NCBI GenBank assembly: GCA_902805665.1
Contig: CADCTB010000173.1
Location: 1-48,146, forward strand
Direction: 5' to 3'
DNA from: an uncultured Acidimicrobiales bacterium
GTDB taxonomy: Bacteria; Actinomycetota; Acidimicrobiia; Acidimicrobiales; AC-14
DNA: 48,146 nt
In this document: positions 37,780 through 44,351 of the stretch, in pieces
Layout: the number at the start of each line of letters is the position of its first letter
How positions within the stretch are numbered: position 1 is the stretch's first letter
Notes under the pieces: model-generated
Seen by the model: the letters and a program-made list of their open reading frames with translations, nothing else
Databases searched by the model: none
What the model was told of the DNA's origin: nothing
Made by a program: the position numbers and the translations under genes

Positions 37780-38679
37780 CTAGCCGGCTGCCCGCCGACT
37801 GCGTTGAGGGCCGATGGTGGCGGCCGGGTCGGCGGCCGACTCGAAGCCGGCACGGAACACTGAGTGCCGGGTGATCAGGCTCCCGGCGCACAGGAGCGCC
37901 CCGGCTGCCACGGCCACCGGTCGCCGCCGCCCGGCGACAAGGCCGAGCGCGGCGCCGGCTGCGGTGCACGCCTCAGCCGCCCGGGCCAGGGTCCCGGCCC
38001 GGCCCTCCTTGTAGGGGCCGGCCACCTCGCCCAGCCGTCTCTCCATGGCCCGGAACGCGGCCAGCTCCAGCGCCGCTCCCATCACCGCGAGCCGTCGGGC
38101 GGGGCCGGCGTCGGGCACCGGTGTCAACGCCAACGCCGTGCCGGCTGCACTGGCCGCCGCGCTGGCCGCGAAGAGGTACGGCAGCTCTCGGTGGGCGTCG
38201 TGCCACGCAGGTATCGCGGTGTCGGCAACGAGGACGGCGGTGTACGTGGCCACTGCCGGCCCGAGCACCCCCGCGGCCCCGGCGGCGACCCGTCCGGTGC
38301 GGGGCAGCCGGCCGGTGACCGCGCTGCCTGCGGCGAGCATCGACGCCGGGGCGAATGCGCTGAGGATCCAGCTGCCGACGCTCATGGGCGACGTCGGCTT
38401 GGCCACTCGCAGCATGTTGAGGAACCGGGCCGGGCGGCCCAGGTCGACCACGAGCAGCGGCCCGCTGACGGCGATGCCGGCGGCCGACGCCAGCAGCGCG
38501 GAGCGGGCCAGACGGCGGTTGCCGGCCAAGAGGGCGGCGAAGCCCAGTGTCGACGAGGCACCCGCCACTCCCCCGGTGAAGAAGTAGAGCGCGATGACCG
38601 GCTTCCAGACCGGCGCCTTGAGGACGGGATTCCCGTAGTAGCCGGTCGCCGTCTCGTCGGTCACCGGGGCCGGGCGCAT
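37780..38679 (-). CDS. NrfD/PsrC-like membrane subunit of formate dehydrogenase
   Basis: 299 residues from ATG 38679, which overlaps the end of the Fe-S subunit gene by 19 bp. About eight membrane helices; opening YYGNPVLKAPVWKPVIALYFFTGG is characteristic of NrfD-type quinone-interacting subunits in actinobacterial formate dehydrogenases, with GPLLVVDLGRPARFLNMLRV in the middle. It contains no haem-ligand pattern of the FdnI cytochrome b type. It should anchor the Fe-S and catalytic subunits and pass electrons to the quinone pool. Last gene of the fdh operon; 64 bp separate it from the VOC gene. Confidence 0.9.
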   Translation of the reverse strand: MRPAPVTDETATGYYGNPVLKAPVWKPVIALYFFTGGVAGASSTLGFAALLAGNRRLARSALLASAAGIAVSGPLLVVDLGRPARFLNMLRVAKPTSPMSVGSWILSAFAPASMLAAGSAVTGRLPRTGRVAAGAAGVLGPAVATYTAVLVADTAIPAWHDAHRELPYLFAASAAASAAGTALALTPVPDAGPARRLAVMGAALELAAFRAMERRLGEVAGPYKEGRAGTLARAAEACTAAGAALGLVAGRRRPVAVAAGALLCAGSLITRHSVFRAGFESAADPAATIGPQRSRRAAG

Positions 38680-39500
38680 GCCGCCGCCACCGCGCCGACC
38701 AGGGCCAGGGCAGCGCCCGCAGCCGCCCTCCACATCCGGGGAAGGTCGCGCGTGGTGACCACCGGATCGGGGGGGAGGCCGTAGACCTCGGGCGCGTCCA
38801 GGAGCAGGAAGAACGCACCGAACCCTCCGACGCCGTCGTTGTCGTCCGCCCCGTACAGATGGGCCTCGCTGACCCCCGCCTCCCGGAGCACACCCAGGCG
38901 GCCGGCCGCCCGGTCGCGTAGCTCGTCGAGGGGCCCGAACTGGATGGACTGCGTCGGGCAGGCCTTGGCACAGGCGGGCGTCATGTCGGACTTGAGCCGG
39001 TCGTAGCAGAGCGTGCACTTCCAGACGCGACCGTCGGATTCCCGCTTGTCGATGACGCCGAACGGGCAGGCCGGGACGCAGTACCCGCACCCGTTGCACA
39101 CGTCCTGCTGCACCACGACCGTGTCGAACTCGGTGCGGAACAACGCCCCCGTCGGGCACACGTCGAGGCACGCGGCATGGGTGCAGTGCTTGCACACGTC
39201 ACTGGACATGAGCCAACGCACACCGGCGGAGCCGGTGTCGAGAGCATCAGCCGCCGGCGACGAGCCGGCGTCTTGACCGTTGACTGGGGGGGAGCTCGGG
39301 GGGGCGGAGCCCCCCCGAGGGCGTTCTACGAAGGCGACGTGGCGCCAGGTGTCGGCGCCCAGTGCGCCGGTGTTGTCGTACGAGGTGCCGAGGAAGTTCA
39401 GGCCGTCGTCGGGGACGTCGTTCCACTCCTTGCACGCCACCTCGCACGCCTTGCAGCCGATGCAGATCGACGTGTCGGTGAAGAACCCCATCCTGGTCAT
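38661..39500 (-). CDS. fdhB: Formate dehydrogenase iron-sulfur (beta) subunit
   Basis: 279 residues; its ATG overlaps the catalytic-subunit stop as ATGA. Four [4Fe-4S] binding sets are complete: Cys13-16-19-23 (CIGCKACEVAC), Cys103-106-111-115 (CKHCTHAACLDVC), Cys135-138-141-145 (CNGCGYCVPAC) and Cys162-165-177-181. A C-terminal membrane helix (MWRAAAGAALALVGAVAAA) is present as in FdnH/FdoH-type subunits. It relays electrons from the molybdopterin subunit to the NrfD-like protein. Odd feature: residues 61-93 are a low-complexity Pro/Ser/Gly/Ala insert before VRWLMSSDVCKHC, encoded by a strong palindrome (separate entry). Confidence 0.95.
   Translation of the reverse strand: MTRMGFFTDTSICIGCKACEVACKEWNDVPDDGLNFLGTSYDNTGALGADTWRHVAFVERPRGGSAPPSSPPVNGQDAGSSPAADALDTGSAGVRWLMSSDVCKHCTHAACLDVCPTGALFRTEFDTVVVQQDVCNGCGYCVPACPFGVIDKRESDGRVWKCTLCYDRLKSDMTPACAKACPTQSIQFGPLDELRDRAAGRLGVLREAGVSEAHLYGADDNDGVGGFGAFFLLLDAPEVYGLPPDPVVTTRDLPRMWRAAAGAALALVGAVAAACARPR
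39295..39319. repeat. Perfect 10-bp GC palindrome inside fdhB coding sequence
   Basis: CTCGGGGGGG (39295-39304), loop CGGAG, CCCCCCCGAG (39310-39319). It encodes part of the low-complexity insert at residues 61-93 of the Fe-S subunit. A second arm pair, GCCGGC and GCCGGC around GACGA, sits about 40 bp away (39252-39268). Such hairpins in coding DNA resemble a palindromic element that landed in frame. Confidence 0.85.
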
Positions 39501-42500
39501 GCTCGTGCCCGCCGCCCGGGGGCGATGTCGCAGGTGGCGGCCTTGACCTCCTGGATGTGGACGTTGGGGTCGAGCGCCAGCGGGAACAGGTCGTTGGCCG
39601 CGTCGCCGGTGGACAGCCCCTTCCAGCCCCAGTGGTAGGGGAGGCCGACCTGGTGGAGGTCGCGGCCCTGGACCCGCAAGGGCTTGACCCTCTCGGTGAC
39701 CAGGACCCGGGCTTCGATTGCCGAGCGGGCGGAGGTGATGGTCGCCCAGCCGCCGTTCACCAGCCCCCGCTCGGCGGCCAGGGCCGGGCTGACCTCGCAG
39801 AACATCTCCGGCTGGAGCTCGGAGAGGCGGGCGAGGAAGCGGGACATCCCTCCTGCGGTGTGGTGCTCGGTGAGCCGGTAGGTGGTCATCACGAACGGGT
39901 AGTCGACGGCGCCGTTCCCGTTGTTGTAGCGGTTATCCCGGCGACGGTACGTCTGGCGGGCGGGGTTGGCCTGCTGGGCGTAGAGCGGGTTCGAGAACGG
40001 TGACTCGTGCGGCTCGTAGTGGGTCGGGAGGGGGCCGTCGACCAGGCCGCTGGGCACGAAGAGCCACCCCTTGCCGTCGGTCTGCATGATGAACGGCTCG
40101 TCGCCACGGAGGGCGTGCTCCGCTTCCGCCCCCTCGGGTGGCTCGTAGTCAGGTGGCTTGTCGATCACGAAGTCGGGGACGTCGTGACCGGTCCACCGCT
40201 GGGCGTCGCCGTCCCACCACACGAGTCGCTTGCGCTCCGACCATGGGCGGCCGGACGGGTCGGCCGAGGCCCGGTTGTAGAGGATCCGCCGGTTCGCCGG
40301 CCACGCCCAGCCCCATTCCAGCGCCACCCGGTCCTGCTCGGAGGCGGGCTTGCGACGCGCCGGCTGGTTGACCTCGTCCGCGTAGCACCCGCTGTAGATC
40401 CAGCACCCGCAGGCCGTCGAGCCGTCGGCCTTCAGCTCGGTGTACCCGCCGACCGTCCGCCCGTCGGGCCCCACGCCGTTGATCTCCCGCAGGACGGCCT
40501 CGGCATCCGGTTCACCCGTCTGGCCGAGCAGCGGGTAGTCCCAGGCCAGGTCGAGGACCGGGCGGTCACGGGCGTCGGTGGAGCCGGCCAGCTTCTCCCT
40601 GATGATCCGGCCGAGGTGCCAGTAGAACCACAGCTCCGACCGGCAGTCGCCCTCCGGCTCGACCGCCTTGTGGTGCCACTGGAGCATGCGCTGGGTCTGG
40701 GTGAAGCTGCCGTCCTTCTCCGTGTGGGCGGCGGCGGGCAGGAAGAACACCTCGGTGCCGATGTCGGCGGTCCGCAGCTCACCGGTGTCGATCTCCGGCC
40801 CGTCCTTCCAGAAGGTGGCAGTCTCGATCTCGACGAGGTCCCGCACGACCAGCCATTCCAGCTCGGCCAGGGCGGCGCGATGGAGCTTGCCGTTGGCCGA
40901 GCCGACAGCCGGGTTCTGGCCCAGCACGAAGAAGCCGGGCACCTTGCCGTCGGCCATGTCCACGATGGTGCGGTAGGAGGAGTGGTCGCCGGTGATGAAC
41001 GGCAGGTAGTCGTAGCAGTAGTCGTTGTCGGCGGTGGCCGCGTCACCCCACCAGGCCTTGAGCAGGCTGATGAAGTAGGCGTCGGCGTGGCCCCAGAAGC
41101 CGGCCGGCGCAGTGTTGGCCGCGATGTAGTCGTCGAGCGTCCCGTGCCGCGCTGCGTGCGGCATGGGCATGTAGCCAGGGAGGATGTTGTAGAGGGTGGG
41201 GATGTCGGTGGAGCCCTGGATGCTGGCGTGGCCCCGGAGAGCCAGGATCCCCCCGCCCGGCCGGCCCATGTTGCCCAGCAACAGCTGGATGATGGCCGCG
41301 GTGCGGATGTACTGGACGCCCACGGTGTGCTGGGTCCAACCGACGGCGTAGCAGATGGCGGACGTCCGCTCGCGGTTGGAGTTGTCGCACAGTGCCTCGG
41401 CCACCTCGAGGAACCGGGCCTTGGGCACGCCGCAGACCTCCTCCACCAGCTCGGGGGTGTACCGGGCGAAGTGGCGCTTGAGGATCTGGAACACACAGCG
41501 GGGGTGTTCGAGGGTCGGGTCGGTCGCCGGCGGCTCCGCTCCCTCCAGCTTCGACCCGTAGCCGTGCGCCTCGCCCTGCGGAGAGCTCTCCTTGGTGCCC
41601 GCCGACGGCGCCGCCGGCATGCCTGCGTACTGCCAGCTCGTCGGGTCGTAGGTCTGCGTCTCCGGGTCCCAACCGGAGAAGAGGCCGTCGAGATCCTCGG
41701 TGTCCTCGTAGTCCTCGCTGATGATGGCCGACGCGTTCGTGTAGGCGGCCACGTACTCGCGGAACTCCCGGCCGGTAGTCAGGATGTGGTTGACGATGGC
41801 GCCCAGGAAGGCGATGTCGCTACCGGCGCGCAGGGCTACGAACGTGTCGGCCAGCGCGCTGGTCCGGGTGAAGCGGGGGTCGACGTGGATCACCCGGGCG
41901 CCGCGGGCCTTGGCCTCCATGACCCATTGGAAGCCGACCGGGTGGCACTCGGCCATGTTCGACCCCATGATCAGGATGCAGTCGGAGTTGACCAGATCCT
42001 GCTGGTAGTCGGTGGCCCCGCCCCTACCGAACGACGTCCCCAGACCGGGGACGGTCGAGGAGTGTCATATGCGGGCCTGGTTCTCGACCTGGACCGCGCC
42101 GAGGGCGGTGTACAGCTTCTTCATGAGGTAGTTCTCCTCGTTGTCGAGGGTCGCTCCTCCGAGACTGGCGATGCCGAGGGTGCGGCGGTTGGGCGCGTCC
42201 CAGGTGGCCGCCCGGGTGGCGATCACCCGGTCGGCGATCATGTCCATGGCCCGGTCGAGCTCCAGCTCCTCCCAGTCGGTGCCGTGGGGCCGCCGGTATT
42301 TCACCGTGTACTCGCGGCTCGGGCCCGTGACGAGCTCCTTGGTGGCCGAGCCTTTCGGGCACAGGCGCCCACGGGAGATGGGGCTGTCCGGGTCGCCCTC
42401 GACCTGGATGACCTTCTCGTCCTTCACGTAGATGCGCTGGGCACACCCCACCGCGCAGTACGGGCAGATCGACTTCACCATGCGGTCGGCGGTCTCCGTA

Positions 42501-42616
42501 CGGGCCACCAGTGCGGCGGAGCGGTCGGATCGTGCCGCCGCGCCGAGCCCGAGCCGGTCGTCGCCCGTGAGCTGGCGGACCACCGGCCAGGAGGCGATGA
42601 GCCGCCGGACAGTCAT
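39497..42616 (-). CDS. fdhA: Formate dehydrogenase catalytic subunit, selenocysteine-containing (TGA at 42067-42065 read as Sec184)
   Basis: One 1,039-residue protein across an in-frame TGA. Upstream part: [4Fe-4S] Cys51, Cys54, Cys58 and Cys86 (SICPYCAVGCAQ...RGRLCPKG), then NEENYLMKKLYTALGA and VENQARI. Codon 184 is TGA and the same frame continues HSSTVPGLGTSFGRGGATD..LIMGSNMAECHPVGF, which is exactly the family's ARI-Sec-H active site. The C-terminal molybdopterin-dinucleotide domain runs to 39497. Sec ligates Mo/W; formate is oxidised to CO2. No Tat motif is visible, so the enzyme is probably cytoplasmic-facing. Start ATG 42616, 10 bp after the DUF6457-like gene. selA, selB, selC and selD are not in the window. 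Automatic callers would split this gene. Confidence 0.95.
42035..42067 (-). promoter_or_regulatory. Selenocysteine codon and bacterial SECIS hairpin in fdhA
   Basis: On the minus strand TGA (42067-42065) is followed after 11 nt by CGTCCCC-GGTCT-GGGGACG, a perfect 7-bp stem at 42053-42035 with a GGUCU loop. It can be lengthened by CGA/TCG with one bulged base. The E. coli fdhF SECIS also has GGUCU in its apical loop, bound by SelB. Distance and loop sequence support Sec insertion. Confidence 0.88.
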
Positions 42617-42626
42617 CGGCCGCTGG

Positions 42627-42899
42627 TCACGACGCCGGCGGGGACCCGTTCGGAGATGATTCGCCGCCCAGCGTCCGCTCGGCGATGGCGATGGCCTCGG
42701 CGAGGGCCTCCTCGCGCGGCACCCCCGTGCGCACCAGCTCGGCGACGAACTGGCCGGCGAGGTACGTCGACAGCGGGGCGAAGTGGCGCTCGCTCCCGTG
42801 GGCCACGACCCGGGCCAGGTCCAGCACTGCCTCAAGTTCCAGAGGCGTCAGCTGGAGCGCGAGGGCTTCTGCGTACTGGTCTGGGTAGTTTGCCGTCAT
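42627..42899 (-). CDS. DUF6457-like small helical protein
   Basis: 90 residues from ATG 42899. The segment LTPLELEAVLDLARVVAHGSERHFAPLSTYLAGQFVAEL resembles the DUF6457 module, found alone or fused to MobA-type enzymes near molybdoenzyme genes in actinobacteria (recalled, not searched). A role in FDH maturation is likely from context: it precedes fdhA by 10 bp in the same operon. Its start codon shares the CATG tetranucleotide with the divergent fdhD start, so neither gene has an intergenic 5' region. Two alternative starts lie within fdhD. Confidence 0.72.
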   Translation of the reverse strand: MTANYPDQYAEALALQLTPLELEAVLDLARVVAHGSERHFAPLSTYLAGQFVAELVRTGVPREEALAEAIAIAERTLGGESSPNGSPPAS

Positions 42900-43707
42900 G
42901 CCCATCACCGCCCGGCGTCAGGTGACCAGAATCGCCGACAATAGCCGCGAGATCCGCTTCGACTCGCTGGTCGCCGAGGAGCCGCTCGAGATCCGGGTCG
43001 GCGGTCGCTCGCTGGCCGTCACAATGCGCACGCCGGGCAACGACTTCGAGCTGGCCACCGGCTTCCTGATCAGCGAAGGCCTTATCGCCGGAGGCTCCGA
43101 CGTGGCCGCCATCAGCTACTGCCCGGGCCCGGAGAAGCAGGAGTTCAACGTCCTCGACGTGACCCTGGCCGCCGGGGTGACGCCCCCGCCGCTGCTCGCC
43201 ACCCGCCCCTTCGTCACCACGTCGTCCTGTGGGCTGTGCGGCAAGGCGAGCATCGACACCGTCCGGTCGAAGTCACAGCACGACGTGAGCGGCGACGAGC
43301 TACGGGTTCCCGTCGACGTCCTGTGTGCGCTGCCCGGTCGGCTCAGGGAGGCACAGAAGGTCTTCGATCGCACGGGAGGGCTCCACGCCGCCGGGCTCTT
43401 CGATGCCGCCGGCCGGCTGGTGTGCCTGCGGGAGGACGTGGGCCGGCACAACGCCTTCGACAAGGTGATCGGCTGGGCCGCCATGGCCGGGCGCCTGCCG
43501 CTGCGGGCGCACCTCATCCTGGCGTCGGGCCGGGCCAGCTTCGAGCTGGTCCAGAAGGCCCTCATGGCCGGGCTGCCCATGCTGGCCGCGGTGTCGGCGC
43601 CCTCCGACCTCGCCGCCGAGCTGGCCGAGGAGGCGGGCATGACCCTCGTGGGCTTCCTGCGGGGCGACACCATGAACGTCTACGCCGGGGCCGACCGGGT
43701 CATCTGA
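42898..43707 (+). CDS. fdhD: Formate dehydrogenase accessory sulfurtransferase FdhD
   Basis: 269 residues from ATG 42898; the opening MPITARRQVTRIADNS matches the family N-terminus. Family motifs: VAEEPLEIRVGGRSLAVTMRTPG, GFLISEGLI, catalytic CGLCGK with Cys111 and Cys114, HAAGLFDAAG, REDVGRHNAFDKVIG and ASGRASFELVQKA. FdhD moves sulfur from a cysteine desulfurase to the molybdenum cofactor before its insertion into FdhA, so its place beside fdhA is expected. A TAGTTT element 7 nt before the ATG could be a -10 giving a leaderless transcript. Convergent with mobA, 35 bp between stops. Confidence 0.96.
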   Translation: MPITARRQVTRIADNSREIRFDSLVAEEPLEIRVGGRSLAVTMRTPGNDFELATGFLISEGLIAGGSDVAAISYCPGPEKQEFNVLDVTLAAGVTPPPLLATRPFVTTSSCGLCGKASIDTVRSKSQHDVSGDELRVPVDVLCALPGRLREAQKVFDRTGGLHAAGLFDAAGRLVCLREDVGRHNAFDKVIGWAAMAGRLPLRAHLILASGRASFELVQKALMAGLPMLAAVSAPSDLAAELAEEAGMTLVGFLRGDTMNVYAGADRVI

Positions 43708-43742: not shown

Positions 43743-44351
43743 CTACGGGGTTTTCGGTGCCGACTTCGGCGGCTGGTGGTCGTGGGCGGCGAGGAGCTCC
43801 GCCGCGGCCAGGTCCTCGGGCCGGTTCACGTTGAGGGCGGCCGGGCCCAGGTCGACCAAGGCGGGCCCGGCAGGGAGCAGGTGGCGGGCGGGCGCCCCCC
43901 GGCCGAGGCCGAGGCTGGCGGCCCGAGCCGACAGGTCTGGCACCCGGTATGCGGCAAGCAGGGGATTGGGCCCGTCCTCCTCGGCCGACGATGCCGCCGC
44001 CGCGCCCGAGGAATGGAGTGCGGCGACCAGCCGGCGGAGGTCACCGGTGGTCAGGAGCGGCAGGTCGACCGCCAGCACCAGGACCACGTCGTACTCCGGC
44101 CCGATCACCTCCACGCCGGCGAGGATCGCCGGCACCGGTCCGCCGCCGGGCGCGGCTTCGCTCACGAACTCCACGTCCACCACGTCGGTGGCGCGGGCCG
44201 GGCCCACGACCACGAGCCGGTCGCAGACCGGACGGGCCGCAGCGAGAACGCGGTCGAGGAGGGTGATCCCGCCGACCTGAAGGGCGGCCTTGTCGAGCCC
44301 GCCCATGCGCCGTCCTCCCCCGCCCGCCAGGATCACGCCGGCGACGGCCAC
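43743..44351 (-). CDS. mobA: Molybdenum cofactor guanylyltransferase MobA
   Basis: 202 residues, GTG start with GGGAGG upstream. Nucleotidyltransferase signature VILAGGGGRRMGGLDKAAL (GTP binding), followed by VVVGPAR, LAVDLPLL (Mg-binding Asp) and NPLLAAYRV, and NVNRPEDL near the end. It adds GMP to molybdopterin, forming the bis-MGD cofactor used by the formate dehydrogenase next door. The His/Pro/Lys-rich tail is unremarkable. It begins 18 bp after the matrixin-like gene on the same strand and may be co-transcribed with it, though the functions look unrelated. Confidence 0.92.
   Translation of the reverse strand: MAVAGVILAGGGGRRMGGLDKAALQVGGITLLDRVLAAARPVCDRLVVVGPARATDVVDVEFVSEAAPGGGPVPAILAGVEVIGPEYDVVLVLAVDLPLLTTGDLRRLVAALHSSGAAAASSAEEDGPNPLLAAYRVPDLSARAASLGLGRGAPARHLLPAGPALVDLGPAALNVNRPEDLAAAELLAAHDHQPPKSAPKTP

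Follow-up and report, generated by a model that had tools for sequence, protein, structure and literature searches.

Is the in-frame TGA in the formate dehydrogenase locus of this draft genome (class Acidimicrobiia) a break between two damaged genes, or is it a codon for selenocysteine (Sec)? The window, by which we mean the whole stretch of 48,146 nucleotides that was analyzed, carries on its reverse strand a frame that the initial annotation had read across the TGA as a Sec-containing formate dehydrogenase (FDH), predicting that selABCD would be found elsewhere in the genome and that ordinary annotation would report two broken genes. The genome is a draft of 3.52 Mb in 227 contigs, 96% complete with an estimated contamination of 4.4%. 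From the evidence given below we put at about 97% the probability that, as a whole, the locus encodes a molybdenum- or tungsten-dependent, membrane-associated FDH with Sec at residue 184, decoded by means of a SECIS element and SelB. The features of the locus and of the Sec machinery are collected in Table 1.

Table 1. Features of the fdhA locus (window positions) and Sec genes on other contigs (contig:position)
Feature	Position	Strand	Evidence or remark
fdhA, formate dehydrogenase alpha (catalytic) subunit	39497..42616	-	1039 codons, UGA184 predicted to be read through
Predicted selenocysteine codon, in-frame TGA, residue 184	42065..42067	-	TGA/TAG here in 90/94 genes compared
SECIS hairpin GUCCCC-GGUCU-GGGGAC	42036..42052	-	First base of loop 18 nt after UGA
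fdhB, iron-sulfur (beta) subunit	38661..39500	-	Start overlaps fdhA stop (ATGA)
NrfD-type membrane subunit	37780..38679	-	Overlaps fdhB end; Pfam NrfD, E 1.1e-12, over cut-off
DUF6457 protein	42627..42899	-	Immediately upstream of fdhA; PF20058, E 1.4e-12
fdhD	42898..43707	+	Divergent; NF001943, 348 bits, cut-off 269
MobA-like nucleotidyltransferase (molybdenum cofactor)	43743..44351	-	PF12804, E 2e-33
selC, tRNA-Sec, anticodon UCA	C75:11757-11848		65.2 bits, gathering score 47
selA	C62:12158-13417		343.5 bits, over family cut-off
selB	C62:13405-15123		Overlaps selA; 262.4 bits, over family cut-off
selD	C210		359 bits, cut-off 125

Reading frame and family of FdhA

When TGA was read as Sec (U), 42616-39497 translated into 1039 residues; the only internal TGA is at U184, and the final TGA of the gene lies at 39499-39497, which confirmed the frame first proposed. 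U184 is preceded by VENQARI and followed by HSSTVPGLGTSFGRGG. The read-through protein scored 1918 bits (cut-off 1400) over residues 7-1038 against NF041513, the NCBIfam model for actinobacterial formate dehydrogenase, and 956 bits (cut-off 814) against the formate dehydrogenase-N alpha model TIGR01553, a curated full-length match that places it in the FdhA/FdnG family. Its Pfam domains are, in order, Molybdop_Fe4S4, Molybdopterin and Molydop_binding (molybdopterin oxidoreductase). A start at the ATG of 42616 agrees with the family, since the match to NF041513 opens with residue 7 of the protein at position 3 of the model, and 42627 is the end of the gene upstream. The closest relatives in the Protein Data Bank were 1h0h, 1kqf and 8cm4, which are Sec- or Cys-containing formate dehydrogenases, and the whole-chain matches to 1kqf and 1h0h had E values under 1e-200. 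The alignment with Sec- and Cys-type enzymes that had been suggested as a check was run: U184 falls opposite the Sec of 6sdr and its relatives (printed as X) and the Cys of 9qm0, and the next residue is His. The in-frame UGA thus occupies the active-site Sec/Cys position, and the claim that its flanks fit the FDH active site stands. The standard list of open reading frames splits the gene, as had been anticipated, into separate entries at 39497-41968 and 42065-42835. Judged from its sequence, 42616-39497 is an intact formate dehydrogenase gene with one in-frame UGA that is predicted to be read as Sec. No clear twin-arginine export signal was seen at the N-terminus of FdhA (MTVRRLIASWPVVRQL), and from this it is likely that the enzyme faces the cytoplasm.

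Codon usage at the Sec site among relatives

The codon at this site was TGA in 77 of the 94 compared genes, TAG in 13, TGT or TGC in three and AGC in one. The AGC would specify a Ser variant in L113 (G111:C178), which we rejected because an overlapping contig end, L153 (G111:C98), reads TGC; the disagreement between the two G111 contig ends probably reflects strain variation or an error at an assembly end, and the Cys-type genes, L113 included, were counted as four. TGA is present at the same site in other assemblies, among them G225 of the same genus (85-86% protein identity) and G138 of the same order (82%). The TAG genes (L027, L030, L042, L050, L052, L053, L059, L067, L068, L074, L095, L096 and L099) occur only in Blastococcus, Modestobacter, Geodermatophilus and Klenkia, all Geodermatophilaceae. 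Every one of the five TAG-type genomes tested has a tRNA-Sec with anticodon CUA, which ARAGORN mislabelled as tRNA-Pyl and which has already been described (PMC5330540); codon and anticodon have changed together, which independently supports Sec as the family's residue at this position.

At the position immediately 5' of the recoded stop, equivalent to 42068 of the window, 54 of the 90 Sec genes have T, 31 have A and five have C (A/U in 85/90), whereas 95.5% of the Ile codons elsewhere in those genes end in C and 4.5% in A/U. In the four Cys-type genes that position is occupied by C or G, not A/U. Among three more distantly related Sec formate dehydrogenases, L117 and L118 have C and L116 has T, and the Sec site in selD of the source genome is preceded by C. 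We hold it possible, if on balance rather doubtful, that A/U 5' of the recoded stop acts as an upstream context signal that favors inserting Sec rather than terminating. Part of the preference could be due to common descent, and the preference may reflect a context effect on termination or may simply be inherited.

Numerous genomes of the class also carry a second, shorter molybdopterin oxidoreductase of about 630-720 codons with one in-frame TGA, for example at G240:C56:87153-87623 and G002:C1:1378888-1379391. From these genes, the use of Sec seems to be common in the class.

A SECIS hairpin downstream of the UGA

The six base pairs of the hairpin are all kept in each of the 70 distinct Sec-encoding sequences, and one of the pairs takes five forms among them (CG 38, TA 16, TG 9, GT 4 and GC 3). 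Val +5 and Gly +9 each contribute their third codon base to this varying pair, which selection on the protein therefore cannot explain; the two bases pair in 90/90 Sec genes (CG 45, TA 27, TG 11, GT 4, GC 3). As the background for covariation we used all 270 third-position pairs of comparable variability with a spacing of four codons, taken from the codon alignment of the 90 Sec genes. The +5/+9 pair ranked first, with 100% pairing and mutual information of 0.87 bits, against 70% and 0.25 bits for the next; kinship inflates such counts, and the background pairs are equally affected by it. Synonymous choice within the hairpin is similarly narrow, with Pro +6 encoded by CCC in 90/90 Sec genes against about 34%, and Gly +7 encoded by GGT in all 69 genes that have Gly there, as compared with 8.7% of T-ending codons among all their Gly codons.

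The hairpin is lost in all four Cys-type genes (L082, L110, L111 and L113), and the RNAalifold consensus structure coincides with the hairpin in position. The fragment folded alone gave as its optimum a different, overlapping stem, with weak z-scores of -1.2 to -1.8 for short pieces and 0.53 for a 57-nt piece; because folding of the single fragment is ambiguous and the overlapping stem is the more stable, the SECIS stem was chosen by comparative evidence and not by energy. An Rfam scan of the whole window gave no match. Bacterial SECIS elements have been described as following the UGA immediately and as carrying a conserved G in a small apical loop (PMC1088965), and the hairpin with its GGUCU loop has both features. 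On this comparative evidence we identify the hairpin at 42052-42036 as a bacterial SECIS element.

These comparisons bear on whether faulty sequencing or assembly could have put the TGA into what is really an ordinary Cys-type gene. Such an explanation may draw on the draft state of the assembly, with its 227 contigs, but the TGA recurs in other assemblies of the genus, the order and the phylum, nine in ten or more of the compared genes (90/94) have TGA or TAG at the site, and the hairpin that is kept here is lost in true Cys-type genes. The same-site TGA in the other same-genus and same-order assemblies excludes a base-calling error in practice, and we consider an error of either kind extremely improbable.

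Selenocysteine machinery and neighboring genes

The genome was searched, as had been proposed, for selA, selB, selD and the selC tRNA, and the prediction that all four lie elsewhere in the genome was borne out (Table 1): the UCA anticodon of the tRNA-Sec matches the codon, and selA, selB and selD score over their cut-offs. The sel genes and fdhA are on different contigs of a draft assembly, so that their shared origin rests on binning. Within its HGAG-U-ACK motif (C210, L155 about 1239), the selD gene itself has a TGA in frame; an in-frame Sec codon is known for many SelD proteins. A run of N is found near the 3' end of selD on C210. Together, the alignment of the site, the hairpin with its covariation and the sel genes support the reading of the UGA as Sec.

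Downstream, fdhA, fdhB and the NrfD-type gene are joined by successive end-to-start overlaps, and the location of fdhB directly after fdhA is conserved in relatives. The best match of fdhB was to the FDH-beta model TIGR01582 (E 1.9e-49, below that model's cut-off), and 4Fe-4S domains are present. The fdhD gene encodes the sulfurtransferase required for formate dehydrogenase activation. At 39210-39325 of the window, fdhB has an additional segment with many G+C palindromes, which sits in a linker of variable length across the family; we rejected a dispersed palindromic element as its source, as the genome has just two short partial matches.

A pseudogene decaying after a genuine stop would account for the split of the gene in the standard reading, but there is a single stop and not one frameshift over 1039 codons, the family match is full-length and extends to both sides of the TGA, the neighboring fdhB and fdhD are intact and the genome has a complete Sec machinery; we give this explanation no better a chance than a sequencing error. 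Less probable still is a genome-wide reassignment of UGA to another amino acid such as Trp, for which we found no supporting point, while TGA terminates both fdhA itself and fdhB, the Cys-type relatives have Cys and never Trp at the site, and a tRNA-Sec with UCA is present.

Proposed mechanism and comparison with known systems

The gene, its UGA, the hairpin, the four sel genes and the neighboring genes were observed directly; how the UGA is decoded, which metal the enzyme uses, what it catalyzes and which route the electrons take we deduce from known families. In the selenoprotein reading that we favor, SelD would make selenophosphate and SelA would convert Ser-tRNA-Sec to Sec-tRNA-Sec, which SelB, bound to the hairpin that lies 15 nt past the UGA, would bring to the ribosome. 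UGA184 would thus be read as Sec, and the terminal UGA of fdhA would still stop translation. The resulting FdhA would oxidize formate to CO2, and the electrons would pass via FdhB to the NrfD-type membrane subunit.

FdhA is the bacterial selenoprotein of widest occurrence (PMC1794560, PMC5029168). Actinomycetospora chiangmaiensis DSM 45062 has a membrane-bound FDH1 whose FdhA1 is of 1078 amino acids with Sec, and its removal of formate is selenium-dependent (PMC7176365). Likened by description, the enzyme studied here resembles FDH1 in being a predicted actinobacterial membrane-bound Sec FdhA of similar length accompanied by FdhB and FdhC, and SelA, SelB, SelD and FdhD are found in both genomes; selA and selB lie inside the FDH1 cluster in A. 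chiangmaiensis but on a contig separate from fdhA here. The TIGR01553 equivalog match over the cut-off and homology over residues 45-1031 relate FdhA to E. coli FdnG (1kqf), from which it differs in having no clear twin-arginine signal and in the NrfD-type third subunit. From the actinobacterial family NF041513 (1918 bits, as above) no difference was found. The UAG-type formate dehydrogenases of Geodermatophilaceae (PMC5330540 and its reference 56) share the gene family, the site and the SECIS loop, and they use UAG with the tRNA-Sec anticodon CUA whereas the source genome uses UGA with UCA.

Biological significance

The fdhA gene of the source genome is a textbook case, a fresh example of a well-known selenoprotein family whose biology is well established, and its annotation should be one selenoprotein rather than two fragments. 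Selenocysteine in Acidimicrobiia may be little discussed in the literature, though its occurrence is unsurprising, and the fdhA case confirms that this draft genome uses it. For the organism, formate-based growth should depend on selenium.
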